Source: Planctomycetota bacterium (lineage in GTDB: Bacteria > Planctomycetota > Phycisphaerae > Phycisphaerales > UBA5793). From it: 64,000 nt of DNA. This document shows positions 1,757 to 17,669 of the stretch, piece after piece. The stretch is from the NCBI GenBank assembly GCA_963205185.1, contig CAUJHZ010000034.1, positions 1 through 64,000 on the forward strand, read 5' to 3'. The notes under the pieces are model-generated. The model saw nothing but the letters and a program-made list of their open reading frames with translations. It did no database searches and had not been told where the DNA came from. Position numbers and translations under genes: made by a program. Within the stretch, counting starts at the first letter, position 1, and each line of letters opens with the position of its first letter.

Positions 1757-1916
1757 GTTGCTCAATTCAATTCGGCGCGATCGGGGCGTCGCTTAAGGTG
1801 CTTTCGAAACCGCACTGCCGATAATGAGCCTCGGGCGAAAACCCGAGCCGGCAGCCGGCGGCTATGCTGCGTTTCATGCCAGTGAGATGAATTTCATCGT
1901 GGACCGCGAAAACTCG

Positions 1917-3512
1917 ATGAGTCGTGGGTGGAGGCGCTGGTTCGCGATCGCGGCTGTCATGATCTGCGCGCTCGTCGCCGCGGCGCGCCTGACCGGACCG
2001 AGTGACCTGCACGACCAGACGCAGGAAAAGACCAGCGCCTACACGACTGATCTGGCTCTGCACGCGGGCGACTGGCGGCGGTGGGTGCTGCCGATGCAGC
2101 AGGGCGCCTATCCGGCCACGAAGCCGCCGCTGTACAACTGGCTCGCGACGCCGTTGGTGCAACTGACGCAGGGTCGATGGGAGTGGCCGCACCGTTTGCC
2201 GAGTCTGCTGGCGTACCTCGCGGTGTGCGCCGTGCTGTGGCGCCTTGGCGATCGCATCGATCCCAAGGGCCTGACCGGGCCGCTGGCCGCGATGATCCTC
2301 GCGTCGAACTACGCGTGGTTCAAACTCAGCGTCCTCGTGCGGCCGGACACGCTGCTGTCGATGTGGCTCGTGCTGGGCTGGATCGGCGCGACGGCGGTGG
2401 TCGGCAACGCGGCGGGCGCAGCAAAGCGCAACCGGTGGAGAGCGGTGATCTGGATCGCGTGCGCACTGGCGGCGCTGACCAAGGGTCCGCCGGCGCTGCT
2501 CATTCCGATGTTCATCGTCGTGCTCGGCTGGTTCACGGGCGAGCCGTGCAGCGGCGCTGCAGCGCGGCTTCGGCGCGCGGGCCGGGCGCTGCGGCAGAGC
2601 GGCGCGCTATGGGGCCTGCCGCTGGTGCTGGGCGTCACCGCGTGCTGGCTGGGCCTGGTGTGGTGGGTGAGTCCGGATCATCTCTACGACACGCTCATTC
2701 GCGAAGAGTTCGTCGATCGCGCGATGGGGACAGGCGCCGAGGGCGTCAAGCACGGGCCGTGGGATCTGATTCGAACGGCGTTGAACATGCCGCTGTACTT
2801 CGTGACGCGGTTCCTGCCGTGGTCGATCTTCTTCTTTGGGGCGCTCATCGACCTGCGGCGCGAGGGCGGCGACGAGCACTCTTGGCCCGATGCCGCGATG
2901 AACCCCGTGCACGAGTGGATGCGCAGCGGCGTAATTTACACGCTGCTCGTCGTCGTGGCGTTCACGGTCTCGGCGGGCAAGCGGGCGGATTACATCGCGT
3001 CGGCGTATGTCTCGGCGTCGCTGGTGACGGCGTGGTGCCTGACGCACCTGGGCTGGAGGCTCGCCGCCCGCCAGCCGGGGCTGGTGCTCGCCGTAGCGGC
3101 GCTCACCACGGCAGCGCTGATTGCGCACGAGCGAATCAATGGATATGCCGTGAAGTACCCCCTGGCGGAATCACTCCGGGACTTTGCGCGGCAGGTCCGG
3201 CCGGAGATCGAAGCCCAGCCGCATACATTGGAGTTCTATCGCACGGGCGTGGCGCCGCTGCAGGTGATGCTGCATCGCTCGCAGCCGGTGCTCGCTGCGC
3301 CGGCTGAACTCGTCGAGGCGATGCGGGGCCACGAGGGAGTCTGGCTGATCGTGGCCGATCGGGGCCTGGACGAGGTGCTCGAGCAGGCAAGGCTGCAGGA
3401 GTGGTCGCTCGATCTTCGGGCGAGTTCAACGCCGGCCAGAGGCAGCGAGGCGGCGGCGCCGCTGGAGATGCGCCTCTATCTCGTGCGGCAGGCGGTCGGC
3501 CGGGGGCGGTAG
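1917..3512 (+). CDS. ArnT-like integral membrane glycosyltransferase (GT83/PMT superfamily)
   Basis: A polytopic protein of about 531 residues. After a first helix (WFAIAAVMICALVAAARL) comes an acidic loop and then KPPLYNWL, the arrangement typical of ArnT/dolichyl-phosphate-mannose type transferases, which move a sugar from a polyprenyl-phosphate carrier onto lipid or protein on the periplasmic side. Further helices follow (RLPSLLAYLAVCAVLW, ALLIPMFIVVLGWF, VVVAFTVSAGKRADY), and the last 120 residues are a soluble tail. In-frame ATGs at 1824 and 1887 would add 31 or 10 residues; 1917 was chosen because it places a short basic tail directly before helix 1. Acceptor and sugar cannot be told. 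Confidence 0.8.
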   Translation: MSRGWRRWFAIAAVMICALVAAARLTGPSDLHDQTQEKTSAYTTDLALHAGDWRRWVLPMQQGAYPATKPPLYNWLATPLVQLTQGRWEWPHRLPSLLAYLAVCAVLWRLGDRIDPKGLTGPLAAMILASNYAWFKLSVLVRPDTLLSMWLVLGWIGATAVVGNAAGAAKRNRWRAVIWIACALAALTKGPPALLIPMFIVVLGWFTGEPCSGAAARLRRAGRALRQSGALWGLPLVLGVTACWLGLVWWVSPDHLYDTLIREEFVDRAMGTGAEGVKHGPWDLIRTALNMPLYFVTRFLPWSIFFFGALIDLRREGGDEHSWPDAAMNPVHEWMRSGVIYTLLVVVAFTVSAGKRADYIASAYVSASLVTAWCLTHLGWRLAARQPGLVLAVAALTTAALIAHERINGYAVKYPLAESLRDFARQVRPEIEAQPHTLEFYRTGVAPLQVMLHRSQPVLAAPAELVEAMRGHEGVWLIVADRGLDEVLEQARLQEWSLDLRASSTPARGSEAAAPLEMRLYLVRQAVGRGR

Positions 3513-3625: not shown

Positions 3626-4990
3626 GTGCGAACCATCGCGATCATCAACCAGAAGGGCGGCTGCGGCAAGACCACGACCGCGATCAACCTCAGCGCCGCC
3701 GCAGCGCGCCGGGGCAAGCGGGTGCTGCTGATCGACCTCGACCCGCAGGGGCACTGCGCGCTGGGGCTGTCGGTGCCGGCGACATCGATCGAGAAGCAGA
3801 TCGGCGATGCGCTCATGGCCGATCTCAATCGCTCCTTCGACGCCACCGACCTGACATGGCAGGCGGGGGACAATCTTGATCTCATCCCCAGTTCGGTGCG
3901 GCTTGCGGCTCTCGAGGCGGTGAGCGGCGGGCTGTCGCGGCTGCCCGATCGGGACCGGCGCCTGGAGCAACTGCTCCGCTGGGTGGCGCCGCGCTATGAC
4001 CTGTGCGTTCTCGATTGCCCGCCGCACATCGGGCTGCTGACGTTCAACGCGCTGCGGGCCAGCAGCGAGATCATCGTGCCCGTCGAGACGAGTTACTTCG
4101 CGCTTCAGGGGGCGGAGAACCAGGTTCGCACGATCGACACGGTGGCGCGGCGGATCGGGCGGTCGCTCTCGGTGGTGCTGCTGCCGACGATGTTCGACGA
4201 AGCGGTGCGCCTGTCGCAGGAGATTCTCGAAGAACTCAAGCGGCGCTACGGCCAGAGCGTGGCGCCGATTACGATTCGCTTCTGCGCTTCGCTGCGCGAG
4301 GCGGCGAGTTTCGGTCAGCCGATCTTCGAGTATGCGCCCGACTCCACGGGCCGGCGTGACTATGAAGCGCTGGCGCAGTGGGTGGAGACCTATCGCCCGC
4401 CGCGACGTACTGAATTCGACGGGATTCCAGTTCACGCGCCGGCCGATCTCGGTTCGCCGGCGGTGGAGACGTGCATCGGGCCGATGTGGCCGCGGCCGAT
4501 CGCCGAAGGCGGTAATCGCGCCGCGGAACTGGCGCAGCGGGCTCGCTACCTGCTGCAGCGGCGCTGCGAGGCGCAGGCGAGCGAGCAGACGAGTCTGGCC
4601 GAGCCCGTGATGCGGCCGGCGCCCGTCGCGCCCGCGCCTGAGGCAGCGCCGATTCCTGCGGTCGAACTGGAGCGCCGGCCGGCGGCAACCGGGTGCCGCA
4701 TCAGGATGGTCTACCGCGCCGCGCACAGCGCCGAGCGCGTGTTCATCGCGGGCGACTTCAATCAGTGGACGCCGCAGGAAACGCCGATGCGATTCAACGA
4801 CTCGCAAGGGGAATTTGAGGCGTGGCTCACGCTGCCGCCGGGGCGCTATCGCTATCGCTTTGTCGTGGACGGGCACTGGATCATCGACCCGGATAATCCG
4901 CGCACCGAGCCGAGCGCTGCCGGGCAACTGCACAGTCTGCTCACCGTGGCGGAGGATGCTGCGGCGCCGGCGAGAGACCGGGCGGGATGA
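3626..4990 (+). CDS. ParA/MinD-family ATPase fused to a C-terminal CBM48 glycogen-binding domain
   Basis: 454 residues from a GTG start. Residues 1-257 are a ParA-type ATPase: deviant Walker A KGGCGKTTT (10-18), LLIDLDPQG (34-42) and a Walker B-like LCVLDCPPHIG. A Pro/Ala-rich linker (about 258-355) leads to residues 356-442, which read as an AMPK-beta/isoamylase-type CBM48 domain with VFIAGDFNQW, then PGRYRYRFVVDGHW and DPDNP. ParA ATPases dimerise on ATP and position cargo on nucleoid or membrane; CBM48 binds alpha-glucans. A fused protein could position glycogen granules or a polysaccharide enzyme, but that is inference. The next gene starts 22 bases downstream, so they probably form an operon. 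No ParB gene is seen. Confidence 0.85.
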   Translation: MRTIAIINQKGGCGKTTTAINLSAAAARRGKRVLLIDLDPQGHCALGLSVPATSIEKQIGDALMADLNRSFDATDLTWQAGDNLDLIPSSVRLAALEAVSGGLSRLPDRDRRLEQLLRWVAPRYDLCVLDCPPHIGLLTFNALRASSEIIVPVETSYFALQGAENQVRTIDTVARRIGRSLSVVLLPTMFDEAVRLSQEILEELKRRYGQSVAPITIRFCASLREAASFGQPIFEYAPDSTGRRDYEALAQWVETYRPPRRTEFDGIPVHAPADLGSPAVETCIGPMWPRPIAEGGNRAAELAQRARYLLQRRCEAQASEQTSLAEPVMRPAPVAPAPEAAPIPAVELERRPAATGCRIRMVYRAAHSAERVFIAGDFNQWTPQETPMRFNDSQGEFEAWLTLPPGRYRYRFVVDGHWIIDPDNPRTEPSAAGQLHSLLTVAEDAAAPARDRAG

Positions 4991-5012: not shown

Positions 5013-6458
5013 ATGACCATGACGAACTCGAACGTGCCATACTCGCGCGACGCCTACGACGACCTGGCCGATCTTTTTTTGACGGATTCGCACTCGGCGT
5101 CGCCGCAGGCCGCGCGCGGCGAATCCGGCCCGGGTGAGCCGCTGCGCTTTCCCGCACGGACTGGCGCAGAAGGCGAAGCGAAGCACGAGTCGCGGCGGCC
5201 CAAGGCGCGGGGACGCCTGCTGGCGATGATGCGCGTCAACCTTCCCGTGATTGCAGGCCCGTGGCTGGAGCAGGCGGCGTCTGTTCTGGCGGCTGAACTC
5301 GGGCCGGTTGCGCTGCTTCGTGAGCGAGGCTCGCACGTGATGCTCGATCTCATCGCCGGCCGGGCAGGGCAGCAGGCCGTCTCGGCGCTGCGCTCGGATT
5401 CGGACCCGGCGACGACGCTCGAGTCGGCAGTGCGGCAACTGCGCGACGTGATGGCGTGCTGGGCGGTCGAGGCCCCGACGCCATCGGCATCCGGCGGGGT
5501 CGACTGGTCCCAGTTTGATGAAATTGTGCTGCTCACGGGGGCGGACGAAGCGGCGACGGTGGCCGCCTTTGCGCAGGTCAAGGCGCTGCAGGCCGCGGTG
5601 GAGGTCATGCCACGATTGTGCCTCATTGTGGTCGGCAGCGAGGATGATGCGGCCCGGCGAGCGGGCGGCCGCATCGCGCGGGCGTGCGAAGAGTCGCTCG
5701 GCTGCGATGTTGAATTGCGGGCGGTGGTGCGCCGCATGCAGCCGGTGCCGATGCGCCATCTCGGGCGGTTCGATCGCGTGCAGGGCAGCGCTGCGCTCAT
5801 CGCGCGCGTGCTGGTCGAAGCCGGCGCCGCGTCGCGGGCGGTGTCAGTTGAGGCGCCGGCAGCCGCGCGGGCGGAAGTCGTTCAAGGCGCGCCGCCGCGC
5901 GTGGCGCTGCGGCCTGCGGCTCTGAGAACCGAAGCCGTTGAAGCTCCCGCGGGCCGGCCGGCTGAACGACCTGTCGTCAAGGTCCCATTCTCAAACGAAC
6001 CGGCCGTTGCAGCCGCACGCGAGCGAAATCGAAGTGATGGCGCGACGGAGCGGGCCTGCTCCCGGTCGCAGCCGAGCGAACCGAGCGCAGCGCCAACCGT
6101 AACGCTGGTCTCTCTGCTCTCTGACCTGCGGCCGCTGGACGCGACGTGCCCGCGGGCGCCGGAGGTCGAACTCGCGTTCGATCAGCAGGGGCGGATGCAC
6201 GCTCTGGTCGAGGATGACGGCGACGCTTCGCTGCAGCGTCTGATTGCGGCCGGCGATTGGGCGTGCGAACACGGCGATCTGCTCAGGAAGCTGAATCCGT
6301 GGCTTTCAGCGAACGGCGAGGCATCGGCGGCGCCGGTGCTGCACCTTTTCACGGCCCGGCCGCGCGAGCGCCGGCTGCTCGCGGACGGCTCGATGCGCGT
6401 GCACATCCTGGTGCGCGATTCCGACGGCGCGGTGGTGACGCATCTCGATCTGAACTGA
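5013..6458 (+). CDS. hypothetical protein, possible P-loop-less ParA/MinD relative
   Basis: Start taken at ATG 5013, six bases before a second in-frame ATG, because the frame upstream overlaps the ParA-CBM48 gene. 481 residues. The polar N-terminus (1-70) is followed by RVNLPVIAGPWLEQA and PVALLRERGSHVMLDLI, whose spacing resembles the first strand, helix and second strand of a ParA fold but with no GKT loop. Later DEIVLLTGADEAATVAAFAQ resembles the MinD/FleN strand and helix that follow Walker B, then LCLIVVGSEDDAARRAGGRI. The last 200 residues are low-complexity then globular. The relation is judged by eye and uncertain; co-transcription with the ATPase supports a joint role. Confidence 0.7.
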   Translation: MTMTNSNVPYSRDAYDDLADLFLTDSHSASPQAARGESGPGEPLRFPARTGAEGEAKHESRRPKARGRLLAMMRVNLPVIAGPWLEQAASVLAAELGPVALLRERGSHVMLDLIAGRAGQQAVSALRSDSDPATTLESAVRQLRDVMACWAVEAPTPSASGGVDWSQFDEIVLLTGADEAATVAAFAQVKALQAAVEVMPRLCLIVVGSEDDAARRAGGRIARACEESLGCDVELRAVVRRMQPVPMRHLGRFDRVQGSAALIARVLVEAGAASRAVSVEAPAAARAEVVQGAPPRVALRPAALRTEAVEAPAGRPAERPVVKVPFSNEPAVAAARERNRSDGATERACSRSQPSEPSAAPTVTLVSLLSDLRPLDATCPRAPEVELAFDQQGRMHALVEDDGDASLQRLIAAGDWACEHGDLLRKLNPWLSANGEASAAPVLHLFTARPRERRLLADGSMRVHILVRDSDGAVVTHLDLN

Positions 6459-9736: not shown

Positions 9737-10253
9737 ACCGGCGCGGCGAAGCATGGGCCGACTGAATCGGACCCGATTTCTCAAGCGTCTCGGCCGAGCG
9801 TATTCGATGCGCCGCAGCGCGATGGTGAGACGGTCGACCTCTCTCTTTGCCGCGCCGCAAGCCACGCTGAGCCGGTAATCCGCCCGGGAGCCCCGGGGTG
9901 AGATGCTCGATCTGAAGTGGTTGTGCCGCACCCGCTTGAGCGCTGCGCAGGATCAGAGCGCGGGCAAGTCCTGAAGCGTCAGGCGCTTGCTGCGCGTCGC
10001 GATCGGCGGCGCCGCGCGCACGGCGAATCAGGCAAACTGCACCAATGGCGTGATGACTTGACTGAAGCATGATTGCTTCTAGCGGGGCGGCGCGATCGGC
10101 CTCGCCGAGCCGTCGTCTGCACGACGACTCATCAGCCAGTTCGGACGCTCACCCCTAGCGCGCGTCGCGTCGGACGAGTGAGCGCACTACACCACCCGCG
10201 CGGTGGCCACGGCCCCGCAAGGGCGCGGAAAACGCAAGAAGGGATGTGCGATC
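9737..10253 (+). other. intergenic region of about 500 bases with no convincing gene
   Basis: No frame with good coding character was found. A perfect 6-bp hairpin with a 4-base loop is at 10064-10079. The last 20 bases hold AAGAAGGGA, the ribosome-binding region of the next gene. The leader could carry its promoter, but no convincing -35/-10 pair was found. Confidence 0.4.
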
Positions 10254-11885
10254 ATGAGAAGCAGTATCTGGAAAGTGGCGGCAGGCGCTGCAGGCGTTCT
10301 GTCGCTGGTCCTCGCCACAGCGTGTGAGACGACGGACGATTCGCAAACGCGCCAGGAGCCCGCCAAACCTGTCGTGCAGGAGCAGCAGGTCGCGCGGGCT
10401 GAACCGACGCCGCCGCCCGCAGCGCCGGAGGCGCCTCCGGTCGCGGCGCGCGCGGCGCCGCAATGGTGGCCGACGATGAAAAACGATCGGACGATGCACT
10501 GGACGGCCATGTGCTTCCCGACCGGCGATCCGCTCACCAGCGTGATCGGCGTCGAGAAGGGCTTGCCCACCGAGGCCAGGCTCAATCAGAACTTCAACTA
10601 CCGGATCCTCGTTACCAATCTGACTGCCAACACGCTCGAGAGCGTCGTGCTCTTTGAAGACTTCGGTCAGAACCTCGAGTACTACGCATCGACGCCGTCC
10701 GCTTCGACCGGCGGCGGGCGCATCTCCTGGATGCTCGGCACCATGGCGCCGCGCGAAACGAGGAACATCGTCGTCACCGCCAAACCCGCCGCGGAGGGCA
10801 CGGTCGGCGCCTGCGCGAGCGTGACCTACGCCACGGCGTTCTGCGCCAATGTGCCGGTGGTCTCGCCGAAACTCAAGATCGTCAAGACCGGTCCGGCTGA
10901 GATCGTGCGGTGTGACGAGATCGTCTACAACATCGAGGTGTCGAACGTTGGTACCGGCGCCATCAACAACGTGAGAGTGATCGACACTCTCCCCAAGGGA
11001 ATGACCACCATCGAAGGTCGCAATGTCTTCGAAGCGGCCGTGGGCACGCTCGCGGCGGGGCAGATGAAGCGCTACTCCTTCCGCGCCGAGGTGGGATCAA
11101 AGGGCAAGTTTGAAAACCGCGCGGTCGCGACGGGCGATGGCGATCTGACGGCCGAGTCGGCCCTTGTGTCCGTCATGGCCCGCGAACCCGCCCTGGAGAT
11201 CGCCGTGTCGGGTCCGAAGGAGAGTTATATCGCCGTGCCGGTGACCTATGAGATCACCGTGACCAACAAGGGCGATGCGGCGGCGGCGGACGCGGTGCTC
11301 GAAAGCGCCGTGCCAAACGGCGCTGCGCTCGTCAACGCTTCGAATGGCGCATCGGCGGTCGGCGGCAAGGTCCTCTGGAAGCTCGGCACGATCGCCACCG
11401 GCGCGTCGAAGAAGGTTACCGTGACTCTGCGCGGCGATCAGCCCGTCTCGCTCCGCAATCTTGTCACCGCCAAGGCCTACTGCGCCTCGGCTGTGACCGC
11501 GACTGCGGATACGGTGGTGCGCGGCATCCCGGCGATTCTGCTCGAGGTCGTGGACCTGTCCGATCCCATCCGCGTCGGTGACAACGTGACGTACCAGATC
11601 ACGGTCACCAACCAGGGTTCGGCGACGGACCACAACATCCGACTCATCTGCACTCTCGAGGAGAATCAGCAGTTCGTGTCGGTGAGCGGCGCAACGGGCG
11701 GCACCGCCGCGGAGGGCGTGATCACCCTGTCGCCGCTGGCGCAACTCGCGCCCAAGGCCCAGGCCGTCTGGACCGTCACGGTCAAGAACGTCACGCCGGG
11801 TGATGTCCGCTTCAAAGTGAGGATGCGAAGCGACAACATCACGCGCGATGTCGAAGAGACCGAAGCCACGAACGTGTGGAAGTAA
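10254..11885 (+). CDS. DUF11-repeat lipoprotein
   Basis: 543 residues from ATG 10254 with AAGAAGGGA upstream. The leader VAAGAAGVLSLVLATAC gives a lipobox-like site at about Cys24, followed by a Pro/Ala-rich stalk to about residue 80. The rest holds consecutive Ig-like DUF11 repeats, seen in recurring patterns such as DEIVYNIEVSNVGTGAINNV, VPVTYEITVTNKGDAAAADA and DNVTYQITVTNQGSATDHN. Such repeats occur in envelope and wall proteins and in OmcB-like proteins. It is probably a structural cell-surface protein. A strong hairpin terminator follows. Confidence 0.85.
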   Translation: MRSSIWKVAAGAAGVLSLVLATACETTDDSQTRQEPAKPVVQEQQVARAEPTPPPAAPEAPPVAARAAPQWWPTMKNDRTMHWTAMCFPTGDPLTSVIGVEKGLPTEARLNQNFNYRILVTNLTANTLESVVLFEDFGQNLEYYASTPSASTGGGRISWMLGTMAPRETRNIVVTAKPAAEGTVGACASVTYATAFCANVPVVSPKLKIVKTGPAEIVRCDEIVYNIEVSNVGTGAINNVRVIDTLPKGMTTIEGRNVFEAAVGTLAAGQMKRYSFRAEVGSKGKFENRAVATGDGDLTAESALVSVMAREPALEIAVSGPKESYIAVPVTYEITVTNKGDAAAADAVLESAVPNGAALVNASNGASAVGGKVLWKLGTIATGASKKVTVTLRGDQPVSLRNLVTAKAYCASAVTATADTVVRGIPAILLEVVDLSDPIRVGDNVTYQITVTNQGSATDHNIRLICTLEENQQFVSVSGATGGTAAEGVITLSPLAQLAPKAQAVWTVTVKNVTPGDVRFKVRMRSDNITRDVEETEATNVWK

Positions 11886-17237: not shown

Positions 17238-17669
17238 ATGGTCACGCCTCAGCCGCAGGGCACGCACCGCTTCGAAATCTATCTTCCCGAAGCGCGGACG
17301 GTGGCCGTGGCCGGTACGTTCTGCGAATGGTCGCCCCAGCGCCACCCCATGCAGCGGCGCGGCGACGGCTGGTGGACGGCGGAAATCGAGATCGAGCCCG
17401 GCGATCATTCGTTTCAATACGTCGTGGATGATCGCGAGTGGGTCGCGGACTTTGCGGCCAGCGGCGTGGAGCGCAACGGCTTTGGCTGCTGGGTGAGCCG
17501 GCTGCACGTCAAGCCGCGCTCGAGCCGGCCGATGCTCGATCGCGAACTCGAAGCGATCGTCGAACTCGTGCGCGAAGCGGCCGACCGCCTGCGCGACCCG
17601 GCCCCGCGCCCGCTGGCGTTCCCGCGCTCAGCCGAAGTCGCGGATGACGACGAGCGACTGGTGGCCTGA
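17238..17669 (+). CDS. free-standing CBM48 (AMPK-beta-type) glycogen-binding protein
   Basis: 143 residues from ATG 17238 (GAAGG about 12 bases upstream). Residues 9-75 form a CBM48 domain: VAVAGTFCEWSPQRHPM, then GWWTAEIEIEPGDHSFQYVV and DDREWVADF. The aromatic ladder that stacks on alpha-glucan (Trp after Glu, Trp in the GDGWW turn) is present. The C-terminal 60 residues are a charged helix (LDREL, AIVELVREAADRL). It is cytoplasmic by sequence. A second CBM48 is fused to the ParA ATPase at 3626-4990, and both may target glycogen. No glycogen enzyme gene is in the window. Confidence 0.85.
   Translation: MVTPQPQGTHRFEIYLPEARTVAVAGTFCEWSPQRHPMQRRGDGWWTAEIEIEPGDHSFQYVVDDREWVADFAASGVERNGFGCWVSRLHVKPRSSRPMLDRELEAIVELVREAADRLRDPAPRPLAFPRSAEVADDDERLVA

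Follow-up and report, generated by a model that had tools for sequence, protein, structure and literature searches.

In the window, by which we mean the whole stretch of 64,000 nucleotides that was analysed and which is contig C34 of a 4.55 Mb genome (97% complete), a gene that joins a ParA-type ATPase to a CBM48 domain lies between a membrane protein gene and the gene of a putative partner. All are on the forward strand:

1824..3512 (+), PMT-type glycosyltransferase-like membrane protein, upstream, with relatives in 10/86 loci
3626..4990 (+), ParA-CBM48 fusion gene, 454 aa, GTG start
3626..4405 (+), Soj/ParA-type ATPase domain (aa 1-260) with N8-Q9-K10-G-G-C-G-K15-T-T, D37/D39 and an invariant basic residue at 224
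4406..4690 (+), disordered Pro/Ala linker (aa 261-355), including the moderately conserved helix RAAELAxRAR (aa 298-322; window 4517-4591)
4691..4954 (+), AMPK-beta-type CBM48 (aa 356-443), in which W381/W418 align with AMPK W100/W133
5013..6458 (+), putative partner gene, 481 aa, starting 23 nt past the ParA-CBM48 stop

The product of 3626-4990 is a complete Soj/ParA-type deviant-Walker ATPase followed, by way of a linker and a helix, by an AMPK-beta-type CBM48, and judged by its sequence it would be assigned to the ParA/MinD ATPase superfamily and to CBM48 and to no narrower class. In Pfam searches the protein gave matches over the cut-off to AAA_31 (1.5e-45, aa 1-182), BcsQ (PF06564, 5e-15), CBM_48 (5.9e-8) and AMPK1_CBM (PF16561, 5.8e-16, aa 366-444), the last of which places the C-terminal segment in CBM48 by sequence. 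When the C-terminal 98 aa were searched alone with phmmer, AMPK beta-2 (4e-12) and also beta-1 were retrieved, together with weaker matches to the plant glucan phosphatases LSF1 and SEX4. The AlphaFold2 model has confident domains at approximately 1-260 and 357-442, and between them runs a disordered linker that contains a single helix (298-322); the linker is flexible and its length varies across relatives. Compared with ParA/Soj structures the ATPase model reached TM-scores (by target) of 0.89-0.91, and its core was nearest to chromosomal Soj/ParA structures, not to MinD. A first-pass annotation, made from the sequence alone, had described a complete deviant-Walker ATPase with the motif KGGCGKTTT, joined by a Pro/Ala linker to an AMPK-beta-like CBM48. 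The motif is as it was given, the coordinates and GTG start of the reading frame were exact, and the linker is seen as a disordered segment in the AlphaFold2 model. The same annotation had allowed that the C-terminal segment might prove to be a different beta-sandwich, but both the AMPK1_CBM and the AMPK beta-2 matches (5.8e-16 and 4e-12) align it with AMPK beta.

The residues expected of both domains are largely retained among relatives. KGGCGKTT was present in 76/76 aligned relatives, as in the deviant Walker A of ParA/MinD (A/D) ATPases, and the alignment shows no variation in the NQKGGCGKTT block, in K10 and K15 or in D37 and D39, in keeping with the signature lysine and the Walker A' aspartate of these ATPases. 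Position 222, the canonical DNA-binding basic position of ParA, is basic in 57% of the relatives, and position 224 is basic in 86/86. In the CBM48 alignment, tryptophan occupies the AMPK W100 position (W381) in 80/83 rows and the W133 position (W418) in 71/82, arginine is found at 411 in 74/82 and glycine at 433 in 77/81. K126 and N150 are further glucan contacts of the AMPK CBM48; in the window's own protein R411 replaces K126, and position 436, aligned with N150 and an asparagine in 64/82 rows, is a histidine. By these alignments the glucan-contact residues are mostly conserved in the ParA-CBM48 family. Plant PTST was shown to lose its binding to starch when the two tryptophans at the positions of AMPK W100 and W133 were mutated, and its CBM48 acts as a localising arm (PMC4339375).

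The fusion was present in 74/120 sampled genomes of the class (67 near full-length profile matches and 7 confirmed from fetched loci), so the two-domain architecture is far from the isolated one-genome fusion that would have told against the first-pass reading. Within the genus the same architecture is found at 71-94% identity, and among the best 80 loci full-length relatives at 35-56% identity are spread over the class, the nearest named relatives being Planctomycetota, mostly of the class Phycisphaerae. One of these 80 loci (L109) is labelled Limnohabitans; in the tree it falls within the Planctomycetota rows, and its contig was probably misbinned. A CBM48 was found in 120/128 fetched loci that have a ParA of the fusion type, and with both domains so conserved and KGGCGKTT in every aligned relative, a chance or frame artefact was rejected. 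Of the 8 loci without a CBM48 call, three (L056, L098, L099) have a sequence stretch that ends within the gene, L156 has its CBM48 in a second reading frame past an unknown base, L011 holds a paralogue, and a ParA without CBM48 is found in L108, L149 and L150. Maximum likelihood placed the Soj paralogues together on a single branch of great length (2.03 changes per column) and put L149 and L150 within groups of fused proteins, a pattern that agrees with one fusion and then loss of the CBM48. A single origin with few later losses is likely and no more than that, since the deepest forks of the tree are only moderately supported. A plasmid origin was rejected, since among the 5000 best tblastn records from plasmids none covered 80% of the query. 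As to the gene content of the two nested loci, the ParA relative of L149 (4054-5127, minus strand) has neither CBM48 nor partner gene, and that of L150 (3813-4784, minus strand) has no CBM48 and has kept the partner gene.

Downstream of the fusion, the product of 5013-6458 consists of an N-terminal DDLADLFL motif, a predicted FlhG/FleN-like fold (aa 64-276), a Pro-rich linker and a C-terminal alpha/beta domain (aa 362-481). Pfam gave no convincing match for it. A profile of the family found FlhG (9e-7) and FleN (1e-4), and the model superimposed on FlhG with a Z of 12.2 and an rmsd of 4.7 over 169 residues, as expected of a MinD-like fold; a Walker A, sought as GK[ST] within the N-terminal 220 aa, was found in 0/53 rows. 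The family adjoins ParA-CBM48 in 86/128 loci, where the ends of the two genes often overlap or nearly abut, and it is from this adjacency that the gene may be taken as a usual, conserved partner of ParA-CBM48. Most lineages without an adjacent partner group in a single large clade, families f8, f107 and f108 among them, and other lineages, for instance f95 and f104, gave no adjacent partner match either. By a loose pattern, a DxLADLFL-like segment was recognised in the N-terminus in 22/53 rows. This N-terminus is acidic, with a median net charge of -3 over 30 aa, and positive in 12/53. In a study of ParA/MinD positioning systems the described partners were found to have a positively charged disordered N-terminus (PMC10241942), a feature of the described systems and not of the ATPase, in which the adjacent gene, a putative partner, differs. 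The same genome has a canonical FlhF and a Walker-bearing FlhG elsewhere, in a flagellar cluster on contig C76 with the order MotB-FliP-FliR-FlhB-FlhA-FlhF-FlhG, and the proposal that the 5013-6458 product is the genome's only FlhG was rejected on account of this pair.

On the upstream side the usual gene is aroB (36/86 loci), and in 15/86 it is a gene that we take from its sequence to be rsfS-like; in the window's genus the PMT-type membrane protein stands in their place. Because relatives of the PMT-type gene occur in only 10/86 loci, it is probably outside the ParA-CBM48 system. Queries with GT3, phosphorylase and GlgE retrieved a single glycogen gene near the fetched loci, a GT3 synthase in L044. 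An examination of the neighbours, which the first-pass annotation had proposed as a check, thus yielded a conserved FlhG-like partner and, save for this GT3, no neighbouring glycogen genes. Neither that partner nor the association with FlhF described below had been mentioned at first pass.

Glycogen genes were sought in the class by family searches only. Among the 120 class genomes GT5 GlgA is nearly absent (2/120), GlgE was found in 3/120, the eukaryote-like GT3 glycogen synthase in 61/120, a GH13 branching-type enzyme in 59/120 and glucan phosphorylase in 111/120, including 67/74 carriers of the fusion. Carriage was not associated with GT3, GT5 or GlgE in these genomes (37/74 carriers vs 28/46 non-carriers, p=0.26), so that no link between the fusion and glycogen synthases was found. 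Branching-type enzymes (p=0.06) and all these enzymes combined (p=0.02) tended, if anything, to be less frequent in carriers. In the window's genus glucan phosphorylase is present and no GT3, GT5 or GlgE was recognised. It had been proposed at first pass that the ATPase places glycogen granules or a polysaccharide enzyme; the ParA-type ATPase, the genuine CBM48 and the conserved architecture stand, but glycogen as the cargo was not borne out by the synthases. Since these show no association and none was recognised in the window's genus, the "glycogen granule" is still a conjecture.

ParA/MinD ATPases place many cellular cargos, which are normally reached through a partner protein. The explanation that we tentatively prefer, and to which we give somewhat less than an even chance, is that ParA-CBM48 is a placement ATPase of the ParA type whose CBM48 tethers an alpha-glucan or a glucan-bound enzyme, with the pseudo-FlhG as adaptor or regulator. 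Through ATP-dependent dimerisation the ATPase would organise itself on a surface inside the cell, probably the nucleoid, and the C-terminal CBM48 would be its tether to a particle resembling glycogen or to an enzyme complex loaded with glucan, which would in this manner be spread, placed or inherited. The Walker-less FlhG-like neighbour may serve as adaptor or regulator, and its N-terminal DxLADLFL segment perhaps docks on the ATPase. In this scheme we infer the dimer cycling, the binding to matrix or nucleoid, the glucan binding, the adaptor role and the identity of the cargo. Speaking for it are the observed architecture and its conservation (74/120 carriage), the Soj/ParA-like core with invariant deviant-Walker residues, most of the CBM48 contacts, phosphorylase in 67/74 carriers, the partner gene adjoining in 86/128 loci with its predicted FlhG-like fold, and the tryptophans and localising arm of PTST. 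Counted against the glucan tether are the histidine at the N150 position and the arginine for K126 in the window's protein, and against the explanation as a whole the absence of CBM48 in two sampled genomes (G225, G375) where ParA persists, the lack of a synthase correlation (p=0.26) with a GT3 nearby in L044 only, the acidic partner N-terminus, a basic position 222 in only 57% (with 224, however, basic in 86/86), and the association with FlhF.

It is this last association that provides the main rival, a serious one even if we think it rather unlikely, in which ParA-CBM48 and the FlhG-like partner place cargo associated with the flagellum, the pole or a chemosensory cluster and the CBM48 binds a protein or a sugar other than glycogen. 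By Fisher tests, in which shared ancestry is ignored, FlhF occurs in 52/74 carriers vs 10/46 non-carriers (p=2e-7) and in 40/47 genomes with the partner (p=3e-9); permuted within families, the association has p=4e-4. In family f96 FlhF was found only in the two carriers, and G225 and G375 are also without it. The Walker-less FlhG-like partner is a family without a Pfam match that is tied to lineages having FlhF, its fold is nearest to FlhG/FleN, and the genome does have a flagellar cluster. Yet the association is exploratory, because several gene families were tested, and FlhF may simply mark lineages with less gene loss; the fusion occurs without an FlhF match in families f8, f107, f108 and f102, and FlhF without the fusion in f101. 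A link to motility is further weakened by the canonical FlhF-FlhG pair already present in the same genome, by flagellar genes that lie on contig C76 and not beside those of the window, and by the conserved sugar-contact residues of the CBM48.

Two other roles were weighed. The CBM48 might report the glucan level, as in AMPK, and gate a ParA ATPase that controls, for example, segregation or division; its AMPK beta type, the flexible linker of variable length and the loss of CBM48 in L150 while ParA and partner stay, as expected of a regulatory add-on, agree with such a metabolic sensor, but no division or segregation gene was recognised as a conserved neighbour, aroB and the rsfS-like gene being usual upstream, and we hold it to be quite improbable. 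One locus, L038, has a ParB gene at a distance of about 4 kb. That the fusion is the chromosomal ParA of a ParABS locus was rejected, as the adjacent gene is FlhG-like and not ParB and the genome has a separate Soj-type paralogue. It is very doubtful that the ATPase acts like BcsQ, controlling a machine for polysaccharide synthesis or export while the CBM48 holds the nascent chain: the PF06564 match (5e-15), BcsQ matches in Foldseek and the glycosyltransferase-like gene that precedes the fusion in the window's genus and in a few others are offset by a far better match to Soj/ParA structures, an NCBIfam BcsQ (TIGR03371) score of 94 bits against a cut-off of 157.85, the occurrence of the upstream gene in just 10/86 loci, and the finding of no recognisable cellulose-synthesis genes around ParA-CBM48.

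Measured against known systems, the fusion shares its deviant Walker ATPase with the Soj/ParA segregation ATPases (8RAY, 2BEK, 6IUB; 32-38% identity over approximately aa 1-256), but these have no CBM48 and are partnered by ParB, whereas here the neighbour is FlhG-like and the basic residue is shifted to 224. With BcsQ it shares a ParA-like ATPase tied to polysaccharide; BcsQ has no CBM48 and matches the ATPase less well than Soj in sequence and fold. AMPK beta, whose domain links a human energy sensor to glycogen, and PTST have the same type of CBM48, the two glucan tryptophans and the use of the domain as a localising arm, but they are eukaryotic and, unlike ParA-CBM48, have no ATPase domain. 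FlhG/FleN share their fold with the putative partner (Z 12.2), which differs in the missing Walker A (0/53), an extra C-terminal domain and its coexistence with a canonical FlhG. McdA/McdB and other ParA/MinD placing systems likewise combine a ParA-type ATPase with a putative adaptor in a small operon, but those systems reach their cargo by way of a partner whose N-terminus is positive, whereas here a putative carbohydrate domain is on the ATPase itself. We know of no carbohydrate cargo for ParA/MinD ATPases. The first-pass annotation knew of no described ParA system that uses a CBM48, and in the open-licence literature searched we likewise found none, nor ParA-driven placement of glycogen. 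The cargos named in one survey of ParA/MinD systems are chromosome, plasmid, divisome, microcompartments, flagella, chemotaxis clusters and conjugation machinery, and glycogen is not mentioned there (PMC10241942). Taken together, the findings suggest that ParA-CBM48 and its partner form an undescribed system that places a cargo linked to a sugar polymer in the cell. It is a bolder and unlikely proposal that throughout the class ParA binds its cargo directly through the carbohydrate domain and shares out glycogen-like carbon stores when the cell divides, a process that a dead FlhG homologue would couple to polarity or motility. A class-wide fusion that has kept its sugar contacts makes active placement and sharing of bacterial storage glucan testable.

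Further genes of related type were seen in the same genome. A second, small CBM48 protein is encoded in the window at 17241-17669 (plus strand; CBM_48 1.7e-9, AMPK1_CBM 8.5e-9), about 12 kb from the ParA-CBM48 gene and with related matches in the genus, and a stand-alone AMPK-beta-type CBM48 protein of 113 aa (7.8e-15) on contig C58 (L160, 5182-5523, plus strand). A Soj-type ParA with KGGVGKTT lies on contig C27 (L159, 6163-7086, minus strand); no ParB was recognised beside it, and its surroundings include genes named from their sequence as porin-like and recO-like. At 10203-11885 (plus strand) the window also encodes a 560-aa protein with four DUF11 repeats that resembles cell-surface proteins.
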